From NCBI GenBank assembly GCA_032622095.1, contig CP136066.1:172853164-172917163 (forward strand): a stretch of DNA of 64,000 nt, read 5' to 3'. How positions within the stretch are numbered: the stretch's first letter is position 1; each line of letters starts with the position of its first letter. The notes under the pieces were generated by a model. It did not search any database, was not told the DNA's origin, and worked only from the letters and a program-made list of their open reading frames with translations. The DNA is from Siphonodentalium dalli (Eukaryota > Mollusca > Scaphopoda > Gadilida > Siphonodentaliidae). The position numbers and the translations under genes were made by a program. Shown here in pieces: positions 23,230 to 58,073 of this stretch.

Positions 23230-23561
23230 TTAATTTTCATCTGATATATGCGAGTCGACCATAGGTCGCCTCTCATATATAAGAGAATGCATTGGCCTGA
23301 CAATTTTTTATCAATTTGTCTTACATTCTTTAACAACTTTTATAATTTTTTATAATTATTTCTTACATTCTGTAACAATTTCGATAATTTTTTATCATTA
23401 TTTCTTACATGCTTTAACAATTATAAAAAATGATATAAAATTTGTTAGGCCAATGCATTCTCTTAAATATGCGAGGCGACCTATCGCATATATATGGTAA
23501 GAATGCAATGGCACAGGGTTTTTCGCAAAACTTCAGGAAGCTTTTGTCATGAAAAGGTTAA
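23230..23561. mobile_element. Chimeric element: F2 end, F3-type core
   Basis: The right end (GGGTTTTTCGCAAAACTTC then GGAAGCTTTTGTCATG and TTAA) is F2. Both hairpins carry the GTCGACCATAGGTCGCC loop characteristic of F3, F6 and F7, and the spacer is the F3-like TTACATTCTTTAACAATTTT. The left end is short: TTAA, a few bases, then the hairpin. Confidence 0.75.
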
Positions 23562-28928: not shown

Positions 28929-29478
28929 TTAACCCTTTACCCAACAGAAGGGCCCTGTGCCAATGCATTCTATTATATATGCGAGTCGACCATAGGTCGC
29001 CTCGCATATATAAGAGAATGCATTGGCTTAACACATTAAAAATTATAAAATTGTTAAAGAATGTAAGAAAAAAATGGTAAACAGTGTTAAAAAAAGATTT
29101 TTTTTAGGCCAATGCATTCTCTTATATATGCGAGGCGACCTATGGTCGACTCGCATATATAAGAGAATGCATTGGCTTAACACATTAAAAATTATAAAAT
29201 TGTTAAAGAATGTAAGAAAAAAATGGTAAAAAGTGTTAAAAAAAAGTTTTTATTAGGCCAATGCATTCTCTTATATATGCGAGGCGACCTATGGTCGACT
29301 CGCATATATAAGAGAATGCATTGGCACAGGGCATAACTGTAACTATCACAATGTGGTCAAGAAGCCGGTTCCAATGATATCCATATTTGTATGGTTCTAT
29401 TGAGACAGTCCGAAGATATTTTAGGCTGTTGAAGCTTTATTTGGCCGGTTTTGGCCGGTTTGTTGGGTAAAGGGTTAT
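28929..29478 (-). mobile_element. F3 element with three hairpin cores
   Basis: TTAA + CCCTTTACCCAACAGAAGGG on the left; the long arm (TTGGCCGGTTTTGGCCGG, TTGTTGGGTAAAGGG) + TTAT on the right. Internally the hairpin core occurs three times, separated by two near-identical spacers (ACACATTAAAAATTATAAAA). The core-spacer unit has therefore been tandemly amplified inside the element. Confidence 0.88.
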
Positions 29479-30546: not shown

Positions 30547-30730
30547 CCCTTTCATGATGGGAGTTTCCCACATGGAACCTCACATATATAAGAGAATACA
30601 TTGGCCTAACAATATTTACCTTGTAAGTCAGTGCATTCTCTTATTCATCCAAGGCTCCCTATGGGAGACTCGCATATATAAGAGAATCACTGGCACAAGA
30701 TCTTTAATGCTGCACCGGCCCAGCTCCGGG
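30543..30730 (-). mobile_element. F2 copy sharing a TTAA with F3
   Basis: TTAA + CCCTTTCATGATGGGAG begins on the TTAA that closes the preceding F3. The hairpins are partly deleted and the copy fades after CTGCACCGGCCCAGCTCC. It ends about 120 bp before exon B. Confidence 0.8.
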
Positions 30731-30852
30731 CATCCCATCCCGTTTTTCCAAGAGGAAAAAAGGGACTCTTTTTTTTTGTTTTCATCAATTTAGTTTTTTT
30801 TCACAGGAAATTATAAGAGAGTTTTTAAGCAGAATCTCTGTTTTCTTTCCAG

Positions 30853-30995
30853 CACCAGGAAAGCCTGAAATAGTCCCAGAAGAGTGTAGTGCTGAGAACA
30901 ACAGTGTGACGATAGCGTGGCAGCCATATTACGGGAGCATCGTCGAGGCGTACACACTCGAACTCGATAACGGCAATGATAAGGGAGACTTCAGG
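30853..30995 (+). CDS. TRIM9: TRIM9-type E3 ligase, exon B (FN3 first half)
   Basis: This 143-bp exon completes an Ala codon with exon A and encodes PGKPEIVPEECSAENN... to ...LDNGNDKGDFR. It is the N-terminal half of the fibronectin type III domain: the VTIAWQPY strand and the YTLELDNG strand with the FN3 tryptophan are visible. The acceptor is TTCTTTCCAG and the donor AGG|GTGAGT (phase 0). FN3 in TRIM9 lies between the COS box and SPRY and is thought to contribute to partner binding. An F5 terminus begins 8 bp after the donor, and F2/F3 elements end about 120 bp before the acceptor. Confidence 0.92.
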
Positions 30996-30999
30996 GTGA

Positions 31000-31095
31000 G
31001 TATCCCTTTCTTTACTGAATGGATTCTCCCAATCAGTAACAAAAGTACTCCTTGGAATGATCTGTTTTTCATTTGGAGGGGTGTTTTGATAAAAC
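31000..31095 (+). mobile_element. F5 terminal fragment at the exon B donor
   Basis: GTAT + CCCTTTCTTTACTGAATGG is the F5 left end, starting 8 bp after exon B. The body continues to TTTGGAGGGGTGTTTTGATA and is then lost at a junction with F4. The preceding four bases are GTAT, not TTAA. Confidence 0.75.
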
Positions 31096-31275
31096 AAGTT
31101 TCTAAAGAACATATAAAACTTGTTAATTTGATAATAAAGATACATTCCAGAAAAGACGAGGCCTAAGCAGAATGAGGTCCCCAGAAGGTGAATTTAGTGA
31201 TGCTAGTCTGCTGTGCAGGTAGGGTCACAAAATTTGCCCTCTGGTGTCCAGCACCACAACTGAATATTTTCTGGC
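31096..31275. mobile_element. F4 copy, eroded
   Basis: AGTTTCTAAAGAACATATAA, TTTGATAATAAAGATAC and GCAGAATGAGGTCCCC are recognisable. The second hairpin arm is degraded (AAAATTTGCCCTCTGG). Confidence 0.65.
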
Positions 31276-32180: not shown

Positions 32181-34094
32181 CTGTCTGTCTGTCTGTCCGT
32201 AGACACTTTACGAGTAATGCGATAACTCAAACATTTTCTATCCAATCGAAACCAAATTTTGTATATGGGTTTCTCAGCCCAAAATACAGATCGAGTTCGA
32301 ATTTGGGTTTGATCCGAGATTTTGTTACAGAGTTATGGCCCTTTTTCAACTTAGAATTCACGCATTCTGCCATAACTCAAACATTTTTTATCTGATTGGA
32401 ACCAAATTTGGTATGTGAGTTTCACAGCCAAAAATACAGATCGAGTTCGAATATGGGTTTGATCCGATTTATTTTAAAGGAGTTATGACCCTTTTTTCGA
32501 AAATAAAATAAATTTTAAAAAAATCCGATGCTCTAACCGAAATATTTTTTTGTCCGATTGTGTTCATATTTGATATGTAGGTTTATGATGACACACCCCT
32601 CACCTGTATAGTTTTTGGTATTGATTGGTTGATCAGTTTAGAAAATAATTAACCCTTTACATACATGCTATCCAATGCAATAAGTTGAACATATTTCTTC
32701 TGATCTGCCTCATATTTCTTACCTAGGTTTTTCTTAGCACGTTCTTCATCTGTATGGTTTTTGGTATTGTTTAATTAACCCTTTTCACTCTTATGTTTAC
32801 TTAGAATTCACCCAAGCTGCTATGACTCAAAACATTTTTCATCTGATCAACACAAAATTTGGTATATGAATTTATCACCCCTAAATACAGATCGAGTTCG
32901 AATATGGGTTTGATCCGATATATTTTAACAGAGTTATGACCCTTTATAATTCAAGTAATTACTGCTGGGAATTTGAAGAGAACATATATCCCACAGCAAT
33001 GTGTGTTATTGAAATGAGTTAATTATCACTATGACATTAGATACTACATGCTATAAAGCATGATAGTGGTACCACTGGCTGGCTGGACTTGTGTATCATA
33101 ATTATGTCAAACTGTGATTGATTACTCACTCTCTGGTGGAGTTCTGCTTTCTGTGCAATATGAAGTTAACCCCTTTGTTGAAACAGGTTTATTACATTAG
33201 CTATATGCACACACTATATGACACCTATTCTAAAATAATAAATTGGAATAGTCCATTGTTACTTTGTAGTGTTGTTTTACAGACATTGTTCTTTACAAAC
33301 ACTGTTGTCTTATCTTAGACAAAAATTTATCCACACATTCCTTAGTTCCATAACATGATGTCATTGAAAATGATTAACCCTCTTCACACATCATATGGTT
33401 TTGATGCTTTTCATTTAATCATTCTCCTATGTTATGTCCAGGTTGATGGTGATCCACTTTTGATTTGCATGGATTTGGGATTAAAATTAAACCATTCCAT
33501 AGACACATATTATGCGATAGACAGATATAATATTATCCCTTTCACTTTGAGCCAGGTTCAGTAAGGGTTTCAATACATCACCAATTGAATATTCATCATT
33601 AGAGGAAATGTCTTATTTTGAAATTCCCTCAATTGCATTTGGGCTCCAGGATAATATTAATGGTGCTGGTATTCTTGAGACTGACTTATTGTATGGGGTT
33701 CTAAATCCAATGACATGCTTTTCATAGACTATTTTGTGTTTATCAGTTCATTAGTTTGGGTAAGATTAACCCCATTCTATCCGATTTGATAACTCAAATA
33801 TTTCCATTGATTATGTTTATAGTTCTTGGCATAGTTGACGATAACACACCCCTAACCTGCATAGTGAGGGTCATTTGGTTTATTTGCTTAAAAATATTAA
33901 CATCCTCCACCAATCCTGTTGACACAATGTGATAACTAAATATTTTTCACACGATCACTATATAAAGTGTGAATTGTTGAAACTTTTTGCACTCATGAAA
34001 AGGTTGGTGTAAGGATTTATAAAATTTATAAAAATAGCTAATCGCTATCGCTAAGGTATGGGTTAAACATCTGCCGATCGTGATCGGCCTCTCG
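32079..34094 (+). mobile_element. Pearl / Helentron-associated-like element
   Basis: Inserted within a T-run of an F3 spacer without an evident target duplication. In order: a terminal ATGTTTACCCATACC, a (GTCT)n microsatellite (about 32135-32200), and a core of degenerate units of about 150 bp (ATAACTCAAACATTTT..., GATCGAGTTCGAATWTGGG, GAGTTATGRCCCTTT). These are followed by a complementary GGTATGGGTTAAACAT (34055-34070) and a 3' hairpin GCCGATCGTGATCGGC. This order is that of Helentron-associated elements (DINE/HINE) and of the Pearl elements of bivalves. No Rep/helicase coding sequence is present. Confidence 0.75.
32135..32205 (+). repeat. (GTCT)n / (GTCC) tetranucleotide microsatellite
   Basis: GTCC, then GTCTGTCTGTCTGTCT runs with interspersed GTCC units. 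It is part of the Helentron-like element, not an independent locus. Confidence 0.9.
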
Positions 34095-42390: not shown

Positions 42391-42776
42391 TTAACCCTTT
42401 ACCCAACAGAAGGGCCCTGTGCCAATGCATTCTCTTATATATGCGAGTCGACCATAGGTCGCCTCGCATATATAAGAGAATGCATTGGCTTAACACATTA
42501 CAAATTATAAAATTGTTAAAGAATGTAAGAAAAAATGTTAAATTTTTTTTTTAGGCCAATGCATTCTCTTATATATGCGAGGCAACCTATGGTCGACTCG
42601 CATATATAAGAGAATGCATTGGCACAGGGCATAACTGTAACTATCACAATGTGGTCAAGGAGCCGGTTCCAATGATATCCATATTTGTATGGTTCTATTG
42701 AGACAGACCGAAGATATTTTAGGCTGTTGAAGCTTTATTTGGCCGGTTTTGGCCGTTTTGTTGGGTAAAGGGTTAA
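42391..42776 (-). mobile_element. F3 element, reference full-length copy
   Basis: TTAA on both sides. Short arm CCCTTTACCCAACAGAAGGG, two GTCGAC-loop hairpin cores separated by an ATTATAAAATTGTTAAAGAA spacer, then the long arm with CAATGTGGTCAAGG, TTAGGCTGTTGAAG and GGCCGGTTTTGGCCG. It begins 142 bp after exon C. Confidence 0.93.
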
Positions 42777-42916
42777 AACTTGTCCTTGTACAATTTTTGA
42801 GAAATTTCGATAAAAAACGTGTGTAGTGTATATTACAAGAAAACGGAAAGATAATAATATAACAATATCAATTATAGCGAACATGAAAAGCTGTTTTCAC
42901 CCTATTCATGCAATGC

Positions 42917-43081
42917 TACAGTAATGCCCTAAATAATCGACTCCTTAACCACAGCAGAATTATGGGTAATTTTTCAGGATTTAGTCGGAAATATGGCTTG
43001 ATGCCATTCGGAAAGTCTCACTGAAAAATTACCCATAATTCTGCTGTGGTTAAGGAGTCGATTATTTAGGACATTACTGTA
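42917..43081. mobile_element. F1 palindrome, shortened centre
   Basis: TA + CAGTAATGCCCTAAAT and GGACATTACTG + TA. Part of the centre of the right arm is deleted. Confidence 0.88.
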
Positions 43082-43986
43082 TCTGAAATTGATAATGCAG
43101 ACAATAGTGCTACTTTAAGATACATTCCTAGATTGAGCTATTTATAAATTGTAGCCTTTTTTTTATCAATCTGTATTATTCCGATAACTGAACTGATGAA
43201 AATTGAAAATTCAGAGATGAGCTGAAGATCACTCTTTTGCTCCATCAAATTAAGAACATTCAGATCTTTTCCCCAAATAGTTTGTGTAATATCCCCAAAT
43301 GGTTGTTGTTTTATTGAATGCGGAACATCACAAGAATATAAGAACATCCCATGATAAAAGAAAAATAATGCTCGGAAGTTTGATAGATGGTCTAGCATGA
43401 CATAGGAGTTCTTATAACAAAGACAAACTCATCAAAGACATCTAAATTAATCAGACTTATAACATAGCTAGAACCATTCAGACCAAAAACTGGTTTGTGT
43501 TATGTAGGCGTTGGGGATATATTGTGAGACATTTATTTTGTAAGTGTCCCTATTGAGGAAGTTTTATTATGACTATAAGGGTATTAACTTACACATACCA
43601 TTATCCCCTTATATTCTTGTCTTTGATGTAAGTATCAGAATCTAAAACAAGAGTATACAGAACAAATGGTCTGGTCTAATGAGCTCATATTTTGGGCAAG
43701 AATGTGGTCTATTTGGAATTGCCGAATTTTCCATGCATAACAATGAGTGTGTCAACACTGGAGTCAGTACATTTTTTGTCTGACATACATCGTTCATTCT
43801 GGATTGTTGGTTTGTCGTCAAAACCACAGTTATTGGATGGATTCTCAATTCAAAATTGTATAAAGAATGTTTTCCCTGCAAAAAGAGATACAAAATTTTT
43901 GTGTATGTAAATATATTTCCTACCCTCCCTCCCCAGTGTCTGTATTCTTATTCCTTTTTACTTTCTTTTTCTTTCATCTCAATAAA
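43082..43986. other. Intron, no recognised feature
   Basis: Nothing identifiable. Confidence 0.35.
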
Positions 43987-44307
43987 GATGATTCATTTAA
44001 TCAGTCAGACCAATAATTGATTCTGTCCACCATGTTACTAAAATTCACAAACTGCCACAGGACACTTGACCAATTTGAAGTAAAAAAAAAATCAATATTT
44101 TCCTGTGTATTTCTATTGGTCACAAAAATTGAGTGGGTCTGTCAGGGTCTGTAGTCTTTTTTTTTTAATCTCAAAATGATGATTCATTCCGGCTTGTCAG
44201 TCATGCCGATGATATTGATTCTTTCCAACAAGTTGCTGAAATTCATCAGTAGTGGACCAATTTGAAGTCAATATTCCCCATGGGCTTCTATTGGTCACTC
44301 CATTTCG
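43987..44307 (+). repeat. Diverged tandem duplication of about 140-190 bp
   Basis: GATGATTCATT, TTGATTCT..CCA, TGACCAATTTGAAGT and TTCTATTGGTCAC occur in the same order at 43987-44128 and 44176-44307. Confidence 0.7.
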
Positions 44308-44632
44308 GGGTCACTCCATTATTTGCTCAGGACAGTGGCATGTCAATTCTGACGTGTATCATTATAACCATGTCTCCAATCCCAGCACTAATGCATCTGT
44401 AATCGATTATGAATTGATGTCGAATAATACCCCACAATCTATATCTTTACCATAGGACTTCTGTGACAATAATCATGCCTTTCTTCATTGAGAAACCACT
44501 TGATAGATTTAATAGAAAATGGATTATAACCGGAGGATTTATTCACTCTCTTTATTGGAGCCCGAAGGTGCTCTGTTGAATATGATGGGTCCTCGTATAT
44601 ATCACTATTGGTTCATGACTACTACAGTAATG

Positions 44633-44824
44633 CCCGAAGTATATGACCCTTTAACCACAGCAGAATTATGGAAAATTTATCAGGATTTAGTCGGAAATAT
44701 GGCTTGTTGCCATTCATCAGAAATTTCTCACGAGAGTCAGCAAGCCATATTTCCAACTAAATCCTGAAAAACTTCCCATAATTCTGCTGTGGTTTAGGGG
44801 TCGATTATTTAGGACATTACTGTA
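44633..44824. mobile_element. F1 palindrome with unequal arms
   Basis: TA + CAGTAATGCCCGAAGT and GGACATTACTG + TA. The left arm carries the GTATATGACCC variant, the right arm the GGGTCGATTATT form. The centre is partly deleted. Confidence 0.86.
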
Positions 44825-45387
44825 AGTCAGGAATATTTCTGGATGAAGACTGTTATTGGAATGGTTTACCCCTCGGCATAGTTTAACCAAATCAACATTA
44901 ATTACCACTTGGCGCTCTAGATCGGATATTAAACATTTGAGAATTTCATTAATATCCTGTTCCGATGAGTGTATAATTTTTCAACAACTCCATCAGTCCA
45001 TCTTAGAGTTTTCAAATTTGATTGTTTTAACACCCTCCCCATCCTGTTGTCAAAAAACCTTATAAATATCAAACAAAGCCTTTTTTATAGGTTTTATAAA
45101 AAATAGCCCAAAACCTTAATGCATCTTTATATTCATCACACTCCAGAATGATTTGCCTTCAATTTTGCATGAACTTATTTACCTTGTCTATTTATAATCA
45201 AAAATATTCATAATTACCATACTTTTCATAATTACCGACCAATCAGTGATCATGTAGGATTATTTCAACATTAACGCATGCCGCAGACCTGTTATATTTG
45301 AAACAACTGCAATCTGTAGTCTTGCTTAAGTATTTATCAAGGAATATTACAATTAAATCATTCAGTGCTTGATTCTCTAAGTATTTG

Positions 45388-45698
45388 TACCTATTACTAG
45401 TATAGTGGATGTCCTTGCACCTCGTCCACTCAAGTACAGTAATGCTCTAAGTAATCAACTTCTTAACCACAGCAGAATTATGGGTAACTTTTCAGGATTT
45501 AGTCGGAAATGTGGCTTGTTGCCATTCATCGAAAAGCTCTCGGGGAGAGCTTTCCGATGAATGGCAACAAGCCATATTTCCGACTAAATCCTTAAAAGTT
45601 ACCCATAATTCTGCTGTGGTTAAGCAGTCGATTAATTAGGGCATTACTGTACCTATTACTAGTATAGTGGATGTCCTTGCACCTCGTCCACTCAAGTA
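45388..45698 (+). repeat. Exact 49-bp direct repeat flanking F1
   Basis: 45388-45436 and 45650-45698 are identical (TACCTATTACTAGTATAGTG ... CGTCCACTCAAGTA). Each begins and ends with TA. The element occupies exactly the space between them. Confidence 0.93.
45435..45651. mobile_element. F1 palindrome between 49-bp repeats
   Basis: TA + CAGTAATGCTCTAAGT and GGGCATTACTG + TA, full length with a CTCTCGGGGAGAG centre. The related unoccupied locus at 45948-45991 carries only one copy of the flanking segment. Confidence 0.93.
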
Positions 45699-45962
45699 TT
45701 CATGTTAGAACATAGCTGAATATTTGCCATAAATTTTGTACAAACTCATTTACCTTGTCTACGGTATTAATCCAGAATATTCATAATTTCCCTATCTATA
45801 GATATATATCTAAATATCAACTCATGTAACAGATCTGCTACATTCTATTAGCAACTGCATTCTATCTCATGTATTCTGCTTGAGTTTTTATCAAGGAATA
45901 TTATAGCTAATAATTCAATGCTTGATGCCTCAAGTACAATGTACTTGTACCTATTATAGCCC

Positions 45963-46097
45963 CATGTCCTTACACCTTGTCCACTCAGGTATTCATGTTA
46001 GTATCCAGGTGAATACAGCACCCGATTACCATGTCCTTACACCTCGTCCACTCAGGTATTCATGTTAGTATCCAGGTGAATACAGCACCCGATTACC
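45963..46097 (+). repeat. Tandem 67-bp duplication
   Basis: CATGTCCTTACACC through ACAGCACCCGATTAC occurs at 45963 and 46030 with about one mismatch. Confidence 0.88.
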
Positions 46098-46427
46098 TCT
46101 TTCTCATCTTGATTTATCAGCCAAAAAAACTGACAGTTAGAAGACGTAGTCAGCCAAAAACTCATGTTCGTACTCATGTTAGAAGAGAATTCGTATGGAG
46201 ATGTGCAGGATAAACAGCCTTGATTAATTCAGAATGCTGACAAGTGTATCAACATGCAAAAATTATGGTGAATCGTTATTAGGCCAATGAAACTTTCAAC
46301 AATCTTTTGTAAGTTAGTCGTAATGTAAAAAAAAAATTGATTCGAAGTTTTCAATTTAAAATTTCGAAGATTTATATCAATATATAAAAAGGTAATTTTG
46401 TTTGCAATTGTTTGGTGTCCTTCAAAA
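46098..46427. other. Intron, no recognised feature
   Basis: Nothing identifiable. Confidence 0.35.
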
Positions 46428-46615
46428 ACTAAACTAAAAATTTTATAAAATAAATAAATTATAAATTTAACAAAATATTCTCTGCCAGATAGTACCTAAG
46501 CAGAATGAGGTCCCCAGAGGGTGAATTTAGTGATGCTAGCCCGCTATGTGGGATAGCGTAACTAAATTCACCCTCTGGGGACCTTATTCTGCAAATGACA
46601 GACACACTAAACTCA
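46428..46615. mobile_element. F4 foldback copy, well preserved
   Basis: AAAACTAAACTAAAAATTTT, then GCAGAATGAGGTCCCC, a near-perfect palindrome around GCCCGCTATGTGGGATAGC, and GGGGACCTTATTCTGC with AAATGACAGACACAC. Confidence 0.82.
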
Positions 46616-46634
46616 GACTTGGACGAGAATAGCA

Positions 46635-46851
46635 TACAGTAATGTCCTAAATAATCGACCCCTAAACCACAGCAGAATTATGGGACATTTTTCAGGATTT
46701 AATCGGAAATATGGCTTGCTGCCATTCATCGGAAAGCTCTCGGTGAGAGCTTTCCGATGAATGGCAACAAGCCATATTTCCGACTAAATCCTGAAAAATT
46801 TCCCATAATTCTGCTGTGGTTAAAGGGTCATATACTTTGGGCATTACTGTA
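46635..46851. mobile_element. F1 palindrome, mixed-arm variant
   Basis: The left arm reads CAGTAATGTCCTAAATAATC then GACCCCTAAACC. The right arm reads GGTTAAAGGGTCATATACTT. The outer 30 bp no longer pair fully, which suggests exchange between copies. Confidence 0.88.
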
Positions 46852-47315
46852 TCTGCCTGACCAGTAGGGGGTACAGATATAATAACAAGATTTATGATTC
46901 TCTGATCTGATTTCCATGCACTGTTCAAGCTGTCTATTGAGAAATTTTGTTTATTTTGGATCTATGTATGAATTCCATGTTGATGATAAGTCAGTGGTTG
47001 TGATTAATAGTTGCAGGTGGGTTCAATGGGTTGTTTTGATGGAGGGTATGTGGTATACATGAGTCCTGATGCTTGCCATGATTATCTAGAAGTTCTATTA
47101 TGGTTTTTTGATGAGTCAGCTTGCAAATGCTGAACAAAAAAAATTAAGTGCAAGAATGTAGCAATTACCTGCATCATCTATTTAAGGTTGTTCCATATAT
47201 TTTGGTTGAGAAATGTTAAATCTATGTAAGTTTGTTCCGTACATTCTGATGAAGAACGGTTAAATCTATGTGAGGCTGTTCCATACTTTCTGGTGGAGAA
47301 AGATTAAAGGCATAT
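46852..47315. other. Intron, short repeated phrases
   Basis: AGAAA(A/G)TTAAATCTATG and TTGTTCC(A/G)TA recur at about 47185-47320, perhaps 60-bp decayed units. Confidence 0.4.
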
Positions 47316-47646
47316 TATGGGCTTGTTCGGTCATGTGGAATTGATAAGTTAGTGCTCATACGCTATGTCAACCTGGGGAATGTAGCATTCAACTAACATC
47401 GCCGAAAATTTCAAAGAAATTGACCATACCACTCAATAGAAAACATCATCTGACCTACGCTCATTTGTAAATATTTACATCTCGATTTGGGACTCAACTT
47501 CTGGCGATAAACTAACACAATTGATTTTGCCATCGAGAGTCATTGCATTTTGGATTAATATTCATAAAATATAACTACTTTCACCAAGATTATTCTCAAA
47601 TTCTATTTGACCAACCTACCCGAGTGTTTCACATCACTTTAAATAT
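47316..47646 (-). repeat. F10 dispersed repeat, copy 2 (inverted)
   Basis: Reverse-oriented partner of 40092-40440. It begins at TATTATGGGCTTGTTCGG and ends at GAGTGTTTCACATCACTTT. Confidence 0.75.
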
Positions 47647-47696
47647 ATGTGAAGTTGTTCTATGCATTCTGGGTGGAGAAAGGTTAGATTCGATGA

Positions 47697-47765
47697 AAGG
47701 TTAAATCACTAAATTCACTCTCTGGGGACCCCATTCTGTAAATGACAGACACACTGTTTCCAGCC
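47697..47765. mobile_element. F4 terminal fragment
   Basis: ACTAAATTCACTCTCTGGGG, CCCCATTCTGTAAATGACAG and ACACACTGTTTC: the outer right arm only. Confidence 0.7.
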
Positions 47766-48310
47766 TTGCTCTCTTAAGAGTTAAAATGTAGCATTCCTTG
47801 TACATTGTATATCGCATAGCAGTATGGCTGGCAAGGGTCAATAAAAGACAGAACATCAAAACAGTGAATAATAAAACTGACAAAAGTCCACAGCTGATAA
47901 AACTAAAACCTCAGTTAATTTATTTAATTTAGACAGAAGAAAAATAAAACAGTTTTACAACCTGATGGTCCAGGGCTCCCAAAATCATTATATGATTAGG
48001 AGGAACTAAAGCTTGATCACAATGCCAAGTATCCATAAGAGTGTTGGCACCATGTGGAATTTATGTAGCACATAAAACAGCAATCAGCCCCAGCAGCCTC
48101 TGTGCTCAGGTGAGGTGAGCCTGTGATGTAACGAGATTAGGACTCATAAACTCACAGACACTCAGCCTGTTTTGTTCTTAGATAGAGTCTCCACGGTGAT
48201 AACCTTTACGCTTTTAGAATATTGTATGGAGAGATTATAGCATGAATGCAAATTCAGCAGGTACTCAAGAGATATTTTCAAAGGAAATAAGTCTGGTGAT
48301 GTCTTCTTGG
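47766..48310. other. Intron, no recognised feature
   Basis: Nothing identifiable. Confidence 0.35.
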
Positions 48311-48412
48311 CAAGCCTTGAAATAGTGTGTCTGTCATTTGCAGAATGAGGTCCCCAGAGGGTGAATTTAGTGATGCTATCCCGCATAGTGGGCTAGCATC
48401 ACCAAATTCACT
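48311..48412. mobile_element. F4 left arm
   Basis: CAAGCCTTGAAATAGTGTGT then CTGTCATTTGCAGAATGAGG and TCCCCAGAGGGTGAATTTAG, cut off after CACCAAATTCAC. It shows the outermost F4 terminus. Confidence 0.78.
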
Positions 48413-48499
48413 GGTATGGCCTGCAGGCTTCAATTCAGTGAATTTGGCCAAAATGTTAACACTGTCGCCTATGGGAAACCATTTAGTTCAGTGATTCCA

Positions 48500-48868
48500 C
48501 ATAGGGTGCACATAGTTACTTCTGGTGCACACAGGGTGCACATGGTTACCTATGGTACTTTACCAATCAGTTAATGTTACAATGGTTACTTTTAATATTT
48601 TTTTTCTTAGAAATCCCAGGATACAATGGTACATTGGGCACAAATTAAAAAGATATTCCCTGAAATACTTTCAGGCCCATGGGTGCATAGGGTACACATG
48701 GTTACTTCTGGTTACTTTACCTATCAGTTAATATTACATTGGTTACTTATATTTCTTTTTTCTTAGAAATCCCAGGATACAAGGGCACATTGGGTACAAA
48801 TTAGAAAACATATTTCCTGACCAACTTTCAAGCCCATGGGTACACTTGGTTACTTCTTGTTTCTTTAC
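48500..48868 (+). repeat. Tandem repeat, units of about 150 bp
   Basis: GG(T/G)..CACATGGTTACTTCTGG, CTTTACC.ATCAGTTAATRTTAC, CTTAGAAATCCCAGGATAC and GCCCATGGGT recur with starts near 48541, 48697 and 48845. The TTCTTAG|AAATCCC phrases look like splice acceptors but lie in a repeat. Confidence 0.8.
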
Positions 48869-49124
48869 CAAGCCTTGAAATAGTGTGTCTGTCATTTGCA
48901 GAATGAGGTCCCCAGAGGGTGAATATTTAGTGATGCTACCCCGCATAGTGGGCTATCATCACCAAATTCACCCTCTGGGGACCTCATTCTGCTTACACCT
49001 CAGCAGAACGAGGTTCCCAGAGGATGAATTTGGTGATGCTAGCCCGCTATGCGGGGTAGCATCACTAAATTCACCCTCTGGGGACCTCATTCTGCAAATG
49101 ACAGACACACTATTTCAAGGCTTG
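48869..49124. mobile_element. F4 complete palindromic element
   Basis: CAAGCCTTGAAATAGTGTGT begins the element and ACACACTATTTCAAGGCTTG ends it, so the full termini are inverted repeats. Inside are two tandem foldbacks with GCGGGGTAGC and GTGGGCTATC centres. It gives the true ends of F4; I do not see an obvious target duplication. Confidence 0.85.
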
Positions 49125-49499
49125 ATTACACTCCATTGTCGATGTTATGGTGAGCTTCTCCATACCCTCAGATGAATATAAAGTGAGCTCTTTGGCATTA
49201 AATATTTTTATGATGGCAGTGTTTCAGTAGCACCAAAAGGGCCTGGTGGTGGACGGAACCTTCCAGTTGTCGCTTTTGTCAATGCAAACACATGCATTTG
49301 TGCAGCCGTCAATCAATGAGAAGGCACATATGAAACCGATAAAGCTCATTCAGGATGACCCACGGACCAGTCTAGAGGGCTACTTCGCAGTTATCTTCCC
49401 GCTAAAATGTGCAACTTCTAAAAAAAATTATACACCCATTTGAAAAAATGGTCAAATTATAAAATCAGTTAACATATTTGGTTCATCGTAAGCTGGATA
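49125..49499. other. Intron, unexplained GC-richer patch
   Basis: 49230-49440 is less AT-rich than its surroundings and open for about 60 codons. I could not match it to a TRIM9 exon or a transposon protein, and no good splice sites bracket it. Confidence 0.3.
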
Positions 49500-49627
49500 A
49501 ATATTCTTCATATGAAGGCTTGGCCATATAGAATGTGTGTAAAGCAATATATCAAATGGCAGCAATTCTAAATACAGGTTACATATACAAGCTTAAGCTC
49601 CGTATTTATCATAAGATATTACTCGAT

Positions 49628-49819
49628 TACAGTAATGCCCTAAGTAATCCACTCCTTAACCACAGCAGAATTATGGGTAACTTTTCAGGATTTAGTCGGA
49701 AATATGGCTTGTTGCCATTCATCGGAAAGCACTCAGTGAGCCATATTTCCGACTAAATCCTGAATAGTACCCATAATTCTGCTGTGGTTAAGGAGTCGAT
49801 TACTTAGGGCATTACTGTA
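49628..49819. mobile_element. F1 palindrome, partly deleted centre
   Basis: TA + CAGTAATGCCCTAAGT and GGGCATTACTG + TA. The right arm has lost the GATGAATGGCAACAAG segment. Confidence 0.88.
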
Positions 49820-49921
49820 GCTCTCTGTATGAATATTAGCAGTCATAAAGATTACAAATTTGATTAACATCAGAAGAGAATTAACAGAGTATGAAGACTT
49901 TCAGTTTGCCATATGTGAATA

Positions 49922-49966
49922 TGTGAGACCTACTCGTCAATGAGTACTTAGTATAGAAAGGGTTAC
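49922..49966 (+). mobile_element. F5 right-end remnant
   Basis: CTACTCGTCAATGAGTACTT then AGTATAGAAAGGGTTA. The rest of the element is absent. Confidence 0.75.
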
Positions 49967-50100
49967 ACATAAGATATCACTCAATAGATTGTCTCTGCAA
50001 CAAAATATGCATTGAAATTCCAGATTGGATAAACATCAGAAAAGAGTATGAAGACTTGGCCATATGTGTAGTGAGGCCAGCTTCATTCTAAAGCAAGTCA

Positions 50101-50890
50101 AGCTGCATGAAGCGCTAAAAGAATTTATGGATGACAGAGTTCAATTCAATTAAATTTAGGGAATTGTGCAAAAACTTAATTCCATCATCAGCCTTCATGC
50201 CTATAATTATCTAAGATATTAAAACATTCCAAGAAAGTGAGTTTGCCTGTCAGAATGATTGACTGCCGAAATCCATACGATTATTAAGAAAGTTAAATGC
50301 ATGAATATTAGAAAAGCTTCCGGCGAGAATATGCTATTAGGAAATGCATGCCTGTCAGAGTGATATTCGAGGCGTTTTTTGATAATAAAGAAGACGTGTA
50401 ATATCAAACTATAGAAAATTGGAGTGTTATGTATTAAAGTTGATTAGAAGCAAGTGAGACGAGGATAAAGGGAAATTAATTCATGTGTCCGTCTTGCATG
50501 CAGCATTCTGCTTTTGTTCTGACGCTTCATTAAAACGTGGATCTTCAGACATCGCGGAGCCAGAATGAATCGCTGAGTGAAACGGAATGATTCCAAGATG
50601 AATCGGTTCTCATTTGATTACTTAAATGAGATTTCACGACAAAGACTCTCAAGTTATTTATGCGTCAGTGGACAAACACTGAGTCTTTTTATGGTCAGGG
50701 AATTGCATCTTCTGGGCACCCAGCTAATTTCATAGATGGGCGATCGGCTGATGATATTTGATCTGACAAAAATTAAACTTGCCCCGAAATTGGGTCTCCA
50801 ATGTGCTGATGAGTTCTTAATGAAACTTTGTTCTTCTTCGTCAGACTTTTTTTTACATTTTTCATCATGAAACTCATTTGTCTCAGTCTG
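50101..50890. other. Intron, no recognised feature
   Basis: Nothing identifiable. Confidence 0.35.
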
Positions 50891-51200
50891 ATGTTACAAA
50901 ATTGTTTGTCGTAGGTCATGAATGATCCAGTAAATCACTTTAAATAACTTAAAATTTCACATTTGTCAAGAATATTTGACTTTATGTGAAAAAGAAAAAA
51001 AATTGTCATTTTGACCTATAATGTCATTAACACAGTATTTTATCATTTAATGTTACAAAATTGTTTGTCATAGGTCATGAATGATTCAGGAAATCACTTT
51101 AAATAACCTCAAATTTCACATTTGTCAGGAATATTTGACTTTATGTGAAAAAGAAAAAAATTTGTCATGTTGACATTTACACAGTAGTTTATCATTTGGG
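50891..51200 (+). repeat. Tandem duplication, unit about 159 bp
   Basis: ATGTTACAAAATTGTTTGTC begins copies at 50891 and 51050. Both run through AGGTCATGAATGATYCAG, ATATTTGACTTTATGTGAAA and ACACAGTAKTTTATCATTT with few differences. Confidence 0.9.
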
Positions 51201-51379
51201 ACACAAGAGTTTTTTTATCGTTAAGAACGTTACTTTGCATAATATTTGCACATTTCATATTTTCATCTTTGGGAAATCATTGCTAATCACTTCTAATGCC
51301 TCAAGTGCAAACATATTCTGTCAATCGTTTTGATGCTTTGCGGATTAAGTTAGTATTGACTATTCACATAGCGTTCCAA

Positions 51380-51597
51380 TACAGTAATGCTCTAAGTAAT
51401 CGACTTCTTAACCACAGCAGAATTATGGGTAACTTTTCAGGATTTAGTCGGAAATATGGCTTGTTGCCATTCATTGGAAAAGCTCTCGGGGAGAGCTTTC
51501 CGATGAATGGCAATAAGCCATATTTCCGACTAAATCCTGAAAAGTTACCCATAATTCTGCTGTGGTTAAGAAGTCGATTACTTAGAGCATTACTGTA
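51380..51597. mobile_element. F1 palindrome, full length
   Basis: TA + CAGTAATGCTCTAAGT and GAGCATTACTG + TA. The left flank is TAGCGTTCCAATA and the right flank TAGTGCTCCAATA, possibly a 13-bp TA-bounded duplication with two differences. Confidence 0.92.
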
Positions 51598-51608
51598 GTG
51601 CTCCAATA

Positions 51609-52057
51609 TGATGCAAAATCAACTGTCATAATTCTATTGTTTTTACACACTTTCTTGTTAGTAACTTTCCACTTACCGTAAGTCGATCTTTACCAAATTG
51701 ACAGATTATTGTAACAGCTACTTTCATATCATCAGCATTGTTGAAACAAATCAACTGAATATCGTATTGCTACAATATGCCGGGTTATTTAAAGTTTTAC
51801 CCAGGATAGTGTGAAGACCATATTGTTATCAGAGTTCATTCGCAAAGTGATTGTAGAAGAATTTAGGAATTCATGTTCAGGCTTCACATGAGTGATTTTG
51901 ATGAGAGCAGTTTTTAGCACACTAAGTTAGAGACATGGGACCCAGAATAATATATTTATTTTTTCTTTTTGGATGAAATTCTTATTGTAACCCGTAAATA
52001 TTTTCTGCAGTTATTTTTCATCCCTTTGTATTTGCTAGCAATAGTAACATTAAGACC
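51609..52057. other. Intron, no recognised feature
   Basis: Nothing identifiable. Confidence 0.35.
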
Positions 52058-52134
52058 TATGTGATGCTAGCCACACTAAATTCACCCTCTGGAGACCTCG
52101 TTCTGCAAATGTCCGGTGCCATATTTTCAGGTCT
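52058..52134. mobile_element. F4 right-half fragment
   Basis: GATGCTAGCCACACTAAATT, CACCCTCTGGAGACCTCGTT and CTGCAAATGTCCGGTGCC. Confidence 0.7.
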
Positions 52135-52416
52135 GATTCCTTTAAATGGATCAGAGCATTCATGGAACAAGTGATCCATAACTTATCCAAGCATAGCCAC
52201 AATAACCATCTAATGACAAATCCGGTTTTGCTGATAATTGTTTTCCGAGTGTAATTTTAATGCCATTCATCATTATGTTGGAGACATTCTGTTATGTTAG
52301 CCAGCTATTATCTTCAAATTAGACATTAGCCAGCTAAACTGATTCTTTGAGACCAACTCATCACAACATAAATCAAAGAAGTCCATAGATAATAAGCCCA
52401 CTTAGAATATAAAGCT

Positions 52417-52815
52417 TAAGACAAGAGTTATATGGACAGTTGAAGTTCCAATGGTATAGCCATGCTTGGTTGTGAATGGGAGGTGTGGGGTGGAATGATG
52501 CTCCCTTCTACAGTAATGCCCTAAATAATCCACTACTTAACCACAACAGAATTATGGGTAACTTTTCATAATTTAGTCGGAAATATGGCTTGTTACCATT
52601 CATCAGAAAGCTCTCAGTGAGAGCTTTCCGATGAATGGCAACAAGCCATATTTCCGACTAAATCCTTAAAAGTTACCCATAATTCTGCTGTGGTTAAGGA
52701 GTTGATTATTTAGGGCATTACTGTAAGACAGAGTTATATGGACAATTGAAGTTCAGTGGTGTAGCCATGCATGGTTGTGAATGGGAGGTGTGGGGTGGTG
52801 TGATGTTCCCTTCTA
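52417..52815 (+). repeat. Direct flank duplication around an F1 element
   Basis: 52417-52510 (TAAGACAAGAGTTATATGGA ... CTCCCTTCTA) recurs at 52724-52815 (TAAGACAGAGTTATATGGAC ... TTCCCTTCTA) at about 88% identity. Both copies start and end in TA, with the element exactly between. Confidence 0.88.
52509..52725. mobile_element. F1 palindrome between duplicated flanks
   Basis: TA + CAGTAATGCCCTAAAT and GGGCATTACTG + TA, full length, central CTCTCAGTGAGAG. Arm divergence is low relative to the flank repeats. Confidence 0.92.
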
Positions 52816-52887
52816 ACTCACAAGTTCTCATCAACAAAAATCACAGGATTCCATCCATAATCGGCCCACGCGCTTTGAATCTAAAGA

Positions 52888-53130
52888 TTAACTCTTTCTT
52901 TACTAAATGGATTCTCCCCATTCAGATATATAGGTAGACATTAGAATGGTCTATTATTCATCGGGAGGGGTTTTGAGAAAAATAAGCAGATGACAGATAA
53001 TACAAGTACAAAAGGAGTCCCATATATTGGATGGATATGTTCAGATAATAAGTTCAACAAATGACCTTTGTTGAATTTATTATCTGAACATTTGCTATAG
53101 GATAACTACTCGTCAATGATTATAGATTAA
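52888..53130 (+). mobile_element. F5 element, full length
   Basis: TTAA + CTCTTTCTTTACTAAATGG to CGTCAATGATTATAGA + TTAA. The hairpin GTTCAGATAATAAGTTCAAC is intact; the right end has lost AAAGGG. Confidence 0.82.
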
Positions 53131-53341
53131 AGCTCATAAGGAGGACATAAGTACTGATGGTGGATCCATGAGGGAGCCGAGGGGGAAGGAACTCCCTTGA
53201 AACTCACATAGCTTTCACAAATATGCCCTGAACCAAGGGCAATTTAAGGAGCAATCTTCTAGAAAAGGGAACATTTTTAGTTAGCAGTGAATCATAGATG
53301 ACGAAAAGAAAGAAAAAAATTCACTCAAACAGCGCTTTTAA

Positions 53342-53727
53342 TTAACCCTTCAGTGACTGGAGCTTCCTCAAATTTTGCCAAAATCCAGTGCCAATGCATT
53401 CTCTTATACAGTAATGCCCTAAATAATCGACCTTAATCGCAGCAGAATTATGGGTAATTTTTCAGGATTTAGTTGAAAATATGGCTTGTTGCCATTCATC
53501 GGAAACTCTCACTGAGAGCTTTCCGATGAATGGCAACAAGCCATATTTCCGACTAAATCCTGAAAGATTACCCATAATTCTGCTGCGGTTAAGGAGTCGA
53601 TTATTTAGGGCATTACTGTATATGCGAGTCTCCCATAGGGATTCTCTCATATAAAAGAGAATATATTGGCCTAACAATATTTACCTTGACCTTATAAGCC
53701 AGTGTATTATCTTATATATGCGAGGCC
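53342..53727 (-). mobile_element. F2 element interrupted by F1, truncated
   Basis: TTAA + CCCTTCAGTGACTGGAGC, then the first hairpin split at CTCTTA|TATGCGAG by F1, a TATTTACCTTGACC spacer and part of a second hairpin. The CATGACGG-side arm is missing. Confidence 0.82.
53407..53620. mobile_element. F1 palindrome nested in F2
   Basis: TA + CAGTAATGCCCTAAAT and GGGCATTACTG + TA inserted into the TATATA run of an F2 hairpin. Deleting it with one TA restores CTCTTATATATGCGAG. Both arms share the CGCAGCAGAATTATGG / TTCTGCTGCGG change. Confidence 0.93.
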
Positions 53728-53921
53728 ACCCCTAATGCTCCAGACACCTCTGCTGTGGTCCTGACCTTGGATGTAACCACTCATTATATCAAACTCGAGG
53801 CTCAGATGGCCCGATATTGCATTATATATGAGATATACTTTCTATTGTTCCTGCGGGAGGCTCCCCAAATGGCAAGCAATGATAATTATCCTACACATTT
53901 CAAGGTTGATAGCAAGCAATC

Positions 53922-54296
53922 AAGTCTGCGTTTAGTGCGCCTCTCATTTGCAGAATGAGGTCCCCAGAGGGTGAATTTAGTGACGATATCCTGCATATAT
54001 AGCGGGCTAGCATCACCGAATTCACCCTCTTGGGACCTCATTCTGCATGGCCTCATCTGCTATGGGAGACATAGACTCAGATTGAAGTTCCCAAATGGTG
54101 AATATTGTGATGTACACCCATTAGGAACCCCGATTATGCAATGTGTCTTCTGCCAATTTGGGGATACAGAGAAACTAAAAAAAAAAAAAAAATAGAATCT
54201 ATGTGAAGAAGTTTCTATAGAAATTTGATAATAAAGAAACTTTCCAGAGAAGATGAGACCTAAGCAGAATGAGGTCTTCAGAGGGTGAATTTCCTG
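53922..54296. mobile_element. F4 element, long form
   Basis: GCAGAATGAGGTCCCC foldback with an extra ATATAT in the loop, then GGCCTCATCTGCTATGGGAG, GTTCCCAAATGGTGAATATT, CCAATTTGGGGATACAGAGA, an A-run, TTTGATAATAAAGAAACTTT and a second GCAGAATGAGGTC start. It closely parallels 17436-17782. Confidence 0.8.
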
Positions 54297-54387
54297 TTAA
54301 ACTTATATGGCTTTTGTAACTTTACATAGGAAGTTGTAACTTTATACAGCTGGGAATAGATAGTTTATCTTTAAATTCAGTTTGACA

Positions 54388-54485
54388 ATGAGTACCAAAC
54401 TCCATACAGCGCCCTCTACGCTATGGCTGCGATGTATCTCAGAGGAGCAATGGGAGATAACTATGCCTGGAGTTTGAATGAGTAC
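54388..54485. mobile_element. F9 element, compact form
   Basis: A unit of about 98 bp from GAGTACCAAACTCC to GGAGTTTGAATGAGTAC, with CAGCGCCCTCTACGCTATGG inside. It is the uninterrupted relative of 7178-7514. Confidence 0.65.
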
Positions 54486-55098
54486 TTGTGGAGTTATATG
54501 TTATTTCTAAAGGCAGACTCTGTTGGTAGCTCCCAAAATAATTTTTTAAACAATCACATGTGCATCAGGAAGATGATAGTGCACTGGTCGTGTTTTCATT
54601 TTGGTATCAGAAATCTGGGGAATGTTTCACACCTTGTGGTTCTGTATTTGTTTATTTCTCTTGGCATGCTTGCATGGAATTGATCTGACAATGGAATGAT
54701 TTGGTGTTTCCCTTTGACCTTATATAACCAAACAATCTAGATTACTGCTGCAGACCAGATAAATTCAGATCGAATGTTGGTAGCTAAATCGGAAGCATTT
54801 TGTGGAGGGGTTATGGTGCCATTGTTGGGCTGTTGTGGAGATTCTTTAAAAATCAAGCCAAGTTTTATTATTGGAAATATATCAAATTTATAATTATCCA
54901 TCATTGAAAATCTGTTTGTGAAGTATTTAGCAGGGTGGCACAAGAGGAGGGGTCAGGGAGGGCTACAGCTGCCCCCCCCCCTGTTGGAGAGGGTTAGCCT
55001 CTCCCCTCCCTCCCCCATTAGGGAGATCTACAATGGTCAGCCCAGTAGCTATAGCCCCCATGTTGGGGGATCGTAGTGCCTGGTGCCACCCCTGGTAT
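54486..55098. other. Intron, GC-rich patch
   Basis: 54940-55095 is C/G-rich (runs of C, GGGGTCAGGGAGGG) and resembles patches near 28650 and 37800. Nothing coding was recognised. Confidence 0.35.
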
Positions 55099-55473
55099 TT
55101 AGCCCTTTGAGTGCCAGGGGCCGATCTCATCGGCCCTAAACCTTCAAAATAAGTCTGTTAAAGAATATAAGAAGAAATTATTAAAATTGTAAAAAAAAAA
55201 AAATTGTTAGGCCAATGCATTCTCTTATATATGCGAGGCGACCTATGGTCAGGGGCCGATCTCATCGGCCCTAAACCTTCAAAATAAGTCTGTTAAAGAA
55301 TATAAGAAGAAATTATTAAAATTGTAAAAAATTGTAAAAAAAAAAAATTGTTAGGCCAATGCATTCTCTTATATATGCGAGGCGACCTATGGTCGACTCG
55401 CATATATAAGAGAATGCATTGGCACAGGGTATATGGGTTGATACAAAAATCGACCTGGCACTCAAAGGGTTAG
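55099..55473 (+). mobile_element. F6 element with TTAG duplication
   Basis: TTAG + CCCTTTGAGTGCCAGGGGCC opens and CGACCTGGCACTCAAAGGG + TTAG closes. After GATCTCATCGGCCCTAAACC comes an A-rich spacer and one full GTCGAC-type hairpin core. The left 135 bp, including half a hairpin, are tandemly duplicated (55116-55250, repeated from 55251). Confidence 0.88.
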
Positions 55474-56373
55474 ATTCCATATTTGTTTTGAACATAAACA
55501 TATATAATTGTAATTTTTCATCAGGATGTGGGGTTCAATATTTCAAACGGGTTTCAACTATCACTGATCATGTAGTGCTCGAGATTGCAGATAATGTACT
55601 AATTCCAGAATCTCTGCCTTGAATGGGTTCCGAGGTTTGATCTCATTATTTTCCACTAAGGAAATTGTACAAACAGTAACTAAATGGTATCGAACTGGAT
55701 TGGGCATCTTTATATTAGAATCCCTGTTACAGCTGAAAAGTAAATAATACTGAAGCTGATGTTGAAAATCTGTTCCTACTTCAATAAATGTGTTTGACTT
55801 CAATTGAACTTTGTTAGTGATAAGTACATCAAAGGTGCTCTCACCTGCGACAATTGTTACCTGAAGGTAATAGTAGAACACTTTTAGGTGTTGTTTGGTA
55901 AACGAGTAAGATTTGTAGCATATACAAACACACCTGGAAAACATAAGACCATCATCATCAAAGGGGTGTGTTAACGATGCGTTCCAGGTGTGGTGTGTTA
56001 GCAAAGCTACAATGTGTAGGAGGATAGAACAAATTACTCAATCATTTATGAAACTCCGGCTCCAATTCATTTAACATGATCATGATACAAAGTGAATCTC
56101 CACTCCCATGCGATTCTGATCGTTTCCTACACACCTTCCTTTAGATTTCATTAGTAGCACTTTACAGGCAGACCTCCACACACACATTCAGAACTCTTCA
56201 ATTAAAGGCATGTATTACGTTTGCAAATAAAAACATCACCCTGATGAAATTGTCGGAACAATCTGCTATCTCACTGTACCATATAAAACTAGAGCTGTAA
56301 ATCTGATTATTTTATTTACAGTATGTTTGCTTCATGTTATTTTCATACTAATTTTTCATTACATTCTACAGGA
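55474..56373. other. Intron, contains the longest open frame
   Basis: A minus-strand open frame of 147 codons lies at 55561-56004. No domain, composition bias or splice context supports it as a gene, and about one such frame is expected by chance here. Confidence 0.4.
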
Positions 56374-56520
56374 TACAGTAATGCCCTAAATAATCGACTC
56401 CGCAACCACAGCAGAATTATGGGTAATTTTTCAGGATTTAGTTGGAAATATGGCTTGTTGCCATTCATCGGAAAGCTTTCTGCTGTGGTTGAGGAGTCGA
56501 TTATTTAGGGCATTACTGTA
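56374..56520. mobile_element. F1 palindrome, one arm mostly deleted
   Basis: Complete left arm from TA + CAGTAATGCCCTAAAT to CATCGGAAAGC. The right arm is reduced to TTTCTGCTGTGGTTGAGGAG ... GGGCATTACTG + TA. Confidence 0.88.
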
Positions 56521-56547
56521 TGTGCTTCTTAATATAGTATTTTGCCT

Positions 56548-56803
56548 TTAACCCTTCCATGAGCTGCTCGGCTGCAGCATTAAAGATCCTGTGCCAGTGC
56601 ATTCTCTTTTATATGTGAGTCTCCCATAGGGAGCCTCGCATATATAAGAGAATGCGCTGGCTTACAAGGTGAAGGTAAATATTGAGGCCAATGCATTCTC
56701 TTATATATGCGAGGCTCCCTATGGGAGAATCGCATATTTAGGAGTATGTATTGGCACAGGGTTGTCGCAAAATTTCAGGAAACTCCAGTCATGAAAGGGT
56801 TAA
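56548..56803 (+). mobile_element. F2 element 62 bp upstream of exon D
   Basis: TTAA + CCCTTCCATGAGCTGCTCGG to AGTCATGAAAGGG + TTAA, with two hairpins and a short AAATATTGAGG spacer. It sits immediately before the acceptor region of exon D. Confidence 0.87.
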
Positions 56804-56865
56804 TTCACAGTTTAATTCAGAAAAATGTAACTTATTTTATAAGCAGTTTCTTCTTTATTTTTCAG

Positions 56866-57090
56866 TTGCTTGGTTTCGTCTCGACCCATCGATGGCTCAT
56901 CCTGAAATCACCTTCTCTAACTCTAACATGACAGCATGTTGTAACAGTTTCGACCACAAAGTTGTACTTGGCAGCGTAGGTTTCTCAAAAGGCGTCCACT
57001 ACTGGGAGGTGACGATAGATCGCTATGACAACAACTCAGATCCAGCCGTGGGCGTGGCTAGATTTGATGTGGACAAATCAGTTATGCTTG
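56866..57090 (+). CDS. TRIM9: TRIM9-type E3 ligase, exon D (SPRY first half)
   Basis: This 225-bp exon completes the Val codon from exon C and encodes AWFRLDPSMAHPEITFSNSN, then ...GSVGFSKGVHYWEVTIDRYD and ...PAVGVARFDVDKSVML. It is the N-terminal half of the SPRY (B30.2-like) domain. The LDP motif, the HYWEV motif that forms the core strand, and the GVAR strand are visible. The acceptor is TTATTTTTCAG. The donor is a weaker G|GTTAGT and leaves phase 1. SPRY domains bind protein partners and in TRIM9 form the C-terminal interaction module. Confidence 0.95.
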
Positions 57091-57293
57091 GTTAGTAGCT
57101 AATTTTTCATTCATCACTGAGACACTATGTTTAAAACGGATGTAGGAATACTTAACAATTACAACTCCCGAAAACACAAATTAATTACTGACATCAATAT
57201 TTACTTGTAATTCCGGAGCAAGTGAATAGGATAATTCTTATTTGATAATGATAATCACCCGCACCCATCCTACTACAGTTTAATATTTACATA

Positions 57294-57758
57294 TATGTGA
57301 CCTGCCATATCAAATCCAGTCGTAAGTCGGGATTTTTTTTACCCTGTGCCAATGCATTCTCTTATATATGCGAGTCGAACATAGGTCGCCTCGCATATAT
57401 AAGAAAATGCATTGACCTAACAATTTTTTACAATTTTAATAATTTTTTCTTGTATTCTTCAACAATTTTATAATTTCACCCATACAGAGCCCCAGACAAA
57501 CATGAGCAGACAACACTCTTCTATATGCTTCTATATATGTGTGGGGCTCCCTGCAGGGTAATGGATGTTTTTTTTATTTTATGTCCTAAAAATTGTAAGA
57601 AATATTTATTTTAAAAAAATGATAAAAAATTGCTAGGCCAATGCATTCTCTTATATATGCGAGGCGAACTACGGTTGACTCGCATATATAAGAGAATGCA
57701 TTGGCACAGGGTAACAAAATCCCGACTTACGACTGGATTTGATATGGCGGGTCACATA
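57294..57758. mobile_element. F7 element: TA-flanked termini around the shared core
   Basis: Termini are TGTGACCTGCCATATCAAAT and its complement ATTTGATATGGCGGGTCACA, with arms complementary for about 40 bp (AGTCGTAAGTCGGGATTTT). TA flanks both sides. Inside sit two GTCGAC-type hairpin cores bounded by CCCTGTGCC and GGCACAGGG, identical in plan to F3. The spacer carries a further insertion near 57480-57560 (GAGCCCCAGACAAACATGAG, GTGGGGCTCCCTGC). Confidence 0.88.
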
Positions 57759-58073
57759 TCTAGTATTTATTGTCTCACTCTATAAATCGCATATGAAGCC
57801 ATTTTCCCTGGATGATATCGGTGATGATCAATGAAAATAGTATTATTTGGTATGTGAGTTTACTATATAGCAAGGGACACCGTTCAAGTTCAAATCTGTC
57901 AAAAAATATGGGTGCCTTCAGGCCATTTTTGCATGAATTATGTCCCTTTATTTAAAATTTGCTAATTATATTGCTACCTGTAAACTAACTTATTTACTAT
58001 TATCTATTTGCTTTCAAATTTTATACATGAATCACTCAAATGAAAATACAGATGTTTAAACTTTTCAACCTAG

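Follow-up and report, generated by a model that had tools for sequence, protein, structure and literature searches.

A palindromic core common to four families of putative miniature transposons with unrelated ends in Siphonodentalium dalli

Families of miniature inverted-repeat transposable elements (MITEs) are usually classified by their ends, and each is assumed to derive from one autonomous element. Four such families, here called F2, F3, F6 and F7, were compared in a 64,000-nt stretch of the genome of the scaphopod Siphonodentalium dalli (assembly GCA_032622095.1, contig CP136066.1, positions 172,853,164 to 172,917,163 of the forward strand; hereafter the window, whose own numbering is used for its features) and at loci sampled elsewhere in the assembly (L numbers); they differ in their ends and carry a common palindromic core. 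A close precedent is provided by the CMITEs of Acropora corals, elements of about 100 bp whose internal region spans 75 bases and whose copy number was estimated at 1,600 (Wang et al. 2010, PMC2872659). As characterized in that report, CMITEs are piggyBac-type MITEs with TTAA duplications and differing CCCTTT-type ends, like F2, F3 and F6; their internal region is more conserved between families than their ends, as was found here, and they form tandem arrays, as here, their origin and function being left open (PMC2872659). All CMITE families described there use TTAA, whereas F7 represents a second target-site class, and the present elements are longer (230-460 bp) and far more numerous (PMC2872659). 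What is new relative to the CMITEs is this second class of target site and the scale.

Fanzor1 genes are found inside transposons of several superfamilies, Sola2 included, and their carriers, in the account consulted (PMC3627910), likewise share an internal passage between different ends, among them chimeric Sola2 elements whose 4-bp duplications are AWWT or AT-rich; the passage there is a protein gene, whereas here it is a short sequence without an evident gene, carried by non-autonomous elements. The reported MITEs whose internal tandem repeats seed satellites (PMC7492417, PMC12628747) resemble the spacer arrays of a minority F2 form and a unit duplication in F3, both described below, although here a long palindrome forms part of the unit, which is common to elements with unrelated ends. 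The terminal repeats of the Drosophila foldback element Galileo are described as restructuring and taking in tandem repeats or foreign sequence, as here; Galileo, however, is one superfamily in which the ends are the conserved part, in contrast to the present core (PMC4168063). No case of a short module without a gene spanning two target-site classes was found among titles and abstract openings in the open-access literature, which hints only weakly at novelty.

The genome scanned comprises 2.23 Gb in nine contigs, the window lying on the contig designated C6. A 20-nt arm of the core, ATGCATTCTCTTATATATGC, has 299,292 exact matches (149,730 forward and 149,562 reverse), and the reversed-arm control has none. 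With up to three mismatches, 68 matches are present in the window and none in each of 100 shuffles; exact arms number 30, compared with 8.6 expected from the genome mean. When all nine contigs were sampled at round coordinates, five of 20 four-kb stretches contained the arm with up to four mismatches. In F3 the core consists of CCCTGT followed by a 69-nt hairpin, an AT-rich spacer, the hairpin in inverted copy and ACAGGG. The stem of the hairpin is 32 bp long, interrupted by a single internal mismatch, and ends in a 3-nt loop; folded as single-stranded DNA, the hairpin gives -35.4 kcal/mol, where shuffles average -6.6. Positions 28 and 42 retain this T-C mismatch in 58 of 63 distinct hairpins, all families being represented. 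The core is bounded by CCCTGTGCC in F3, F6 and F7 and by CCTGTGCC or CCCTGTGCC in F2. Loops are of the CGACC/GGTCG type in F3, F6 and F7 and mostly CTCCC/GGGAG in F2, as stated in a first-pass annotation made from the window sequence alone. An Rfam scan of the window returned no matches at gathering thresholds.

Complete copies were excised by their ends, and consensus sequences were built from 8 F2, 20 F3, 16 F6 and 5 F7 copies; approximate lengths are 250, 390, 235 and 460 bp, respectively. F2 end pairs at 15775-15915 (one arm) and 33171-34003 (no arm) were excluded from the consensus, and F2-like end pairs lacking both arm and TTAA at L089 and L091 were treated as chance. The consensus ends of F2, F3 and F6 are CCCTTT, fitting the piggyBac-type terminal motif CC[C/T]T. 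In a tally of complete copies with at least one arm, a few loci of which duplicate one another (for example L001/L002, L008/L009 and L010/L011), TTAA flanks both sides of 8 of 11 F2, 33 of 40 F3 and 10 of 16 F6 copies, 51 of 67 in total. By these duplications and ends, F2, F3 and F6 appear to behave as piggyBac MITEs. F7 has ends GTGACC...GGTCAC, is never flanked by TTAA (0/24 copies) and has identical 4-bp sequences outside its ends in 18 of 24 copies: ATAT in 13, ATTT in three, and AATT and AAAT in one each. ATAT is also compatible with a TA duplication, whereas the remaining five copies are not; the 18 copies agree with the 4-bp AWWT duplication given for Sola2-type elements in the sections consulted (PMC3627910). 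The annotation was right that F7 differs in its target duplication, although F7 is not simply TA-flanked as described there.

The families also differ in the form of the core. The consensus of 16 F6 copies contains one hairpin and the spacer only, with a short GGGCCGATctcATCGGCCC stem on the other side, and the core of F7 is the longest, with a further structured segment in its middle. The main F2 form, F2a, combines the CTCCC loop with a spacer of about 27 nt. The minority form, F2b, has a long spacer and the GTCGACC loop of F3, F6 and F7; the genome has 188 exact copies of a 50-mer that spans the junction between the F2 end and the GTCGACC core. Both F2 ends were seen at four of 11 F2b loci read (L094, L100, L101 and L102), three others being broken or lacking the left end (L093, L095 and L098) and four exceeding the fetched stretch (L092, L096, L097 and L099). 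In L099 and L096 the F2b spacer consists of an array of 30-43-bp units built around AATTGTTAAAGAATGTAAG, of which about one is present in F3, F6 and F7. The four elements and the common core of the annotation were confirmed, with the named examples found at slightly refined boundaries (Table 1); its statement that all four families carry the whole core fails for F6.

Consensus parts were compared against 200 dinucleotide-preserving shuffles each. All 24 comparisons of flanks between families gave z values of -1.2 to 1.4, that is, no homology. The hairpin consensus, in contrast, is the same in F3, F6 and F7 (69 of 69 positions identical), that of F2a agrees with it at 63 of 69, and the spacers of F2b (one copy, L099), F3, F6 and F7 are homologous in eight of nine between-family comparisons (z 4.2 to 9.9). 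The middle segment of the F7 core is without a match in the other families. Descent of all four families from one element by simple divergence could account for the CCCTTT starts and TTAA duplications common to F2, F3 and F6. It is rejected here, with hardly any residual probability, because unrelated flanks and two kinds of target duplication accompany a common core; F2a and F2b, moreover, have the same ends and unlike spacers and loops. Throughgoing agreement of core and end histories, which the annotation had named as the argument against its proposal, is not what is seen between families. Taken together, these comparisons indicate that core and ends differ in history, and that the families are chimeras with a common core; grouping by core and grouping by ends yield conflicting families. 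A single internal module that crosses from TTAA to AWWT elements, its exact arms numbering about 300,000, makes this genome a natural test case for the idea that internal sequence, and palindromes especially, drives MITE success, an issue raised and left open in the CMITE report (PMC2872659).

Independent movement of the core was assessed from the bases that precede it. The genome contains 123,995 exact copies of the 33-mer at the core end, preceded by G (F3-like) in 80,334 cases, TATA (F6-like) in 14,372 and TTA (F7-like) in 21,092, so that 115,798 ends (93.4%) show letters expected for these families, which do not by themselves prove identity copy by copy. A pyrimidine precedes the end in 1,043 cases; among 20 of these that were read, all on contig C1, 13 have an F3 flank, five an F7 flank (at L113 on the right side only) and one an F2 flank. 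STA, a context that should be frequent if the core could insert freely at TA, was counted 394 times in a search that used a somewhat shorter core word. Neither this count nor the 20 odd ends revealed a free core with its own target duplication, which the annotation had suggested looking for. Family probes assigned 65 of 71 core clusters in the window and L001-L060, and two more are F2 remnants by eye. Conversely, 781 F3 ends seemed to lack a core, having no C at the junction, yet all 12 that were read had a core with a point change. Core-less end pairs were absent among 40 F3, 16 F6 and 24 F7 pairs (0/80) at the loci sampled, many of which had been picked by the core, 12 F3 loci (L073-L084) and 15 F7 loci (L065-L071 and L103-L110) being picked by ends alone. 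Within F3, flank and spacer types are linked: in 38 of 42 copies with a readable spacer (four rows were set aside), the combinations were CTA-A in eight and TGG-B in 25, with CTG-B in three, TTG-B in one and CGG-A in one as intermediates, and the CGG-A copy may have arisen by recombination. Inheritance of the core follows the family, without repeated entry or exit. The linked F3 types and the few ends in a free context suggest that exchange was rare and took place at the founding of families; of the annotation's interpretation, separate histories of core and ends are upheld and a core now moving alone is not.

The explanation that we regard as probable is that founder events placed an old passenger core between new ends, each chimera then being amplified. 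The core, two inverted 69-nt near-perfect palindromes around an AT-rich spacer bounded by CCCTGTGCC, would be an old passenger module of non-autonomous DNA transposons, first resident in old piggyBac-like MITEs of F2 type, presumably F2b. On a few occasions it would have been placed between the ends of two TTAA elements (F3 and F6) and one AWWT element (F7), the likeliest route being repair-associated capture or template switching at palindromes. Each chimera would then have multiplied as a unit, mobilised by whichever transposase recognises its ends, presumably of piggyBac type for F2, F3 and F6 and another transposase for F7. F2 is the most diverged family (flank singletons of 6.7% per site, compared with 1.3% in F3 and 2.2% in F7), and one F7 copy is inserted within an F2a hairpin (L069). 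The divergence of F2, together with the GTCGACC core and multi-unit spacers of F2b, suggests F2b as the best candidate source of the core.

Several observations weigh against the founder-event explanation. Neither an intermediate nor an undivided ancestor of F3, F6 and F7 was found, and direction and route are unproved. The F2a spacer resembles none of the others, and F3 compared with the second F7 spacer gave a z of only 1.9. One of the 20 odd ends (L128) could not be placed in a family, and core clusters at L017, L029, L031 and L034 were left unassigned by probes and eye. No autonomous partner was recognised: piggyBac transposase (PF13843) has 128 matches in the genome, many with open frames of more than 500 aa, but F2, F3 or F6 ends were seen at none of 11 piggyBac loci read, where they may fall outside the stretches. 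Finally, a boundary that falls on one base across families suits a unit bringing its own ends better than it suits random template switching. This boundary points either to the base of a large inverted repeat that was cut or copied in break repair or to an extinct element's terminal repeat. The former is favoured because no duplication surrounds the core in F2 or F3, and the latter because the F7 junction reads TTA-core-TAA at the middle of a palindrome, as a TA duplication would give. In its full form, the second alternative makes the core a former transposon with terminal repeats CCCTGTGCCAATGCATTC, inserted separately into the precursors of F2, F3, F6 and F7 and since extinct as a free form. 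An inverted repeat that ends at one base against different flanks would suit such an origin; it is nevertheless judged unlikely, given that STA-flanked ends number only 394 against about 124,000 and that 19 of the 20 odd ends carry the flank of a known family. Helitron-type insertion, suggested by several A-core-T junctions, was dropped since F3 has G-core-C; Helitron ends were not searched for.

Whether the core is conserved better than its host elements, as the annotation had proposed, was examined by comparing hairpins and flanks in copies not selected by the arm (15 F3, 12 F7 and 7 F2), all positions up to five bases from a gap being masked. Divergence among L001-L040, which were selected by an exact arm, understates hairpin change. 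In F3, substitutions affect 13 of 1,894 hairpin sites and 46 of 1,839 flank sites (p 9e-6). In F7, whose copies were selected by exact ends, so that only the inner flank was compared, and include two copies of one insertion (L067 and L068), the corresponding values are 19 of 1,479 and 12 of 371 (p 0.02). The proposal holds in these young copies; in old F2 the difference (61 of 895 versus 46 of 521) is not significant (p 0.18). With singletons only, p was 0.03 in F3, 0.11 in F7 and 0.49 in F2. Deletions in F3 removed 122 bases beside 1,948 aligned in hairpins and 50 beside 1,885 in flanks, the hairpins of L076 being misaligned in this tally. Of the differences seen in the set of 63 distinct hairpins, three that separate F2a from the others are paired on both sides; most of the remaining changes break pairs. 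This pattern fits a palindrome that stays paired in multiplying copies, through selection or palindrome-templated repair, and decays once inserted. The extra conservation of the hairpin is modest and points only weakly to a function, none being demonstrated.

Retention of the core for an activity that raises the copy number of its host element, through DNA structure, binding of a host protein or a hairpin RNA, is considered rather improbable. The same hairpin in four amplified families, the deficit of substitutions in F3 and F7, the paired F2a differences, the retained T-C mismatch and the internal-sequence effects proposed for CMITEs in the report cited (PMC2872659) count in favour of such an activity. 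Set against these are the values for F2 and for singletons, the greater loss of bases from hairpins than from flanks, the predominance of unpairing changes, the fact that paired changes are also expected from palindrome-templated repair, and the success of F6 with one hairpin. A bolder form appears no less doubtful: the palindrome pair would serve as an amplification module that depends on no particular transposase and would be selected across superfamilies as a selfish part moving from vehicle to vehicle. If true, its capture by any non-autonomous element would raise copy number by cruciform-driven copying, by a host DNA-binding protein or by a hairpin RNA that interferes with silencing.

Long spans between F7 ends contained no recognised transposase frame, no Sola2 profile search having been made, and a 4.3-kb span proved to be two separate F7 elements. 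The insertion represented by L067 and L068 is present in two inverted copies about 53 kb apart with differing internal core deletions. An F7-ended element of about 1.4 kb, its core split at the hairpin, was seen at L066:588-1121 (C1:4550087-4550617) and at L065; it contains a GC-rich inverted repeat and a 177-aa frame of the Bcl-2 family (PF00452, E 1.7e-13). At least 153 matches to this protein were counted genome-wide; many of them are intact, several form inverted pairs, and one may guess that the frame is tied to mobile or viral elements.

Table 1. Core-bearing elements and their parts in the window.
Feature	Position	Strand
F3 element, CCCTTTACCCAACA ends, TTAA both sides	42395..42772	+
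Core of this F3 copy, CCCTGTGCC...GGCACAGGG	42415..42629	+
Hairpin 1 of this F3 copy, 69 nt (32-bp stem, one mismatch, 3-nt loop)	42421..42489	+
Hairpin 2 of this F3 copy, 69 nt, inverted copy of hairpin 1	42555..42623	+
F6 element, half core, internal tandem duplication, TTAG both sides	55103..55469	+
Sole complete hairpin of this F6 copy	55355..55423	+
F2a element, TTAA both sides, CTCCC-type loop	56552..56799	+
Core of this F2a copy	56588..56761	+
F7 element, GTGACC...GGTCAC, ATAT both sides (57293-57296, 57756-57759)	57297..57755	+
Core of this F7 copy, longest form	57342..57711	+
Additional structured segment at mid-core of this F7 copy	57478..57560	+
Damaged F2b-type copy: F2 right end, GTCGACC core, AT-rich spacer	23240..23560	+
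F3 copy with hairpin-plus-spacer unit tandemly duplicated (three hairpins)	28933..29474	+

At L031:185-629, a core fragment consisting of the spacer and half a hairpin is flanked by two 97-bp direct repeats that are 94% identical. On contig C1, core-bearing copies are evenly spaced at about 736-926 kb and at 94.237-94.292 Mb (intervals of about 14.56, 11.17 and 7.86 kb), a regularity suggesting that the elements lie within large tandem segmental arrays. The frames at 30708-31166 and 56742-57095 seem to resemble fibronectin and SPRY exons of a TRIM9-type gene, and on this basis the elements may sit in introns of one gene. A second abundant palindromic element, TA-flanked and with TACAGTAATGCCCTAA... 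ends, is present in the window, for example at 56374-56520, 53407-53620 and 45435-45651; its ends number 19 forward and 20 reverse with up to three mismatches, and one copy sits within an F2 core.

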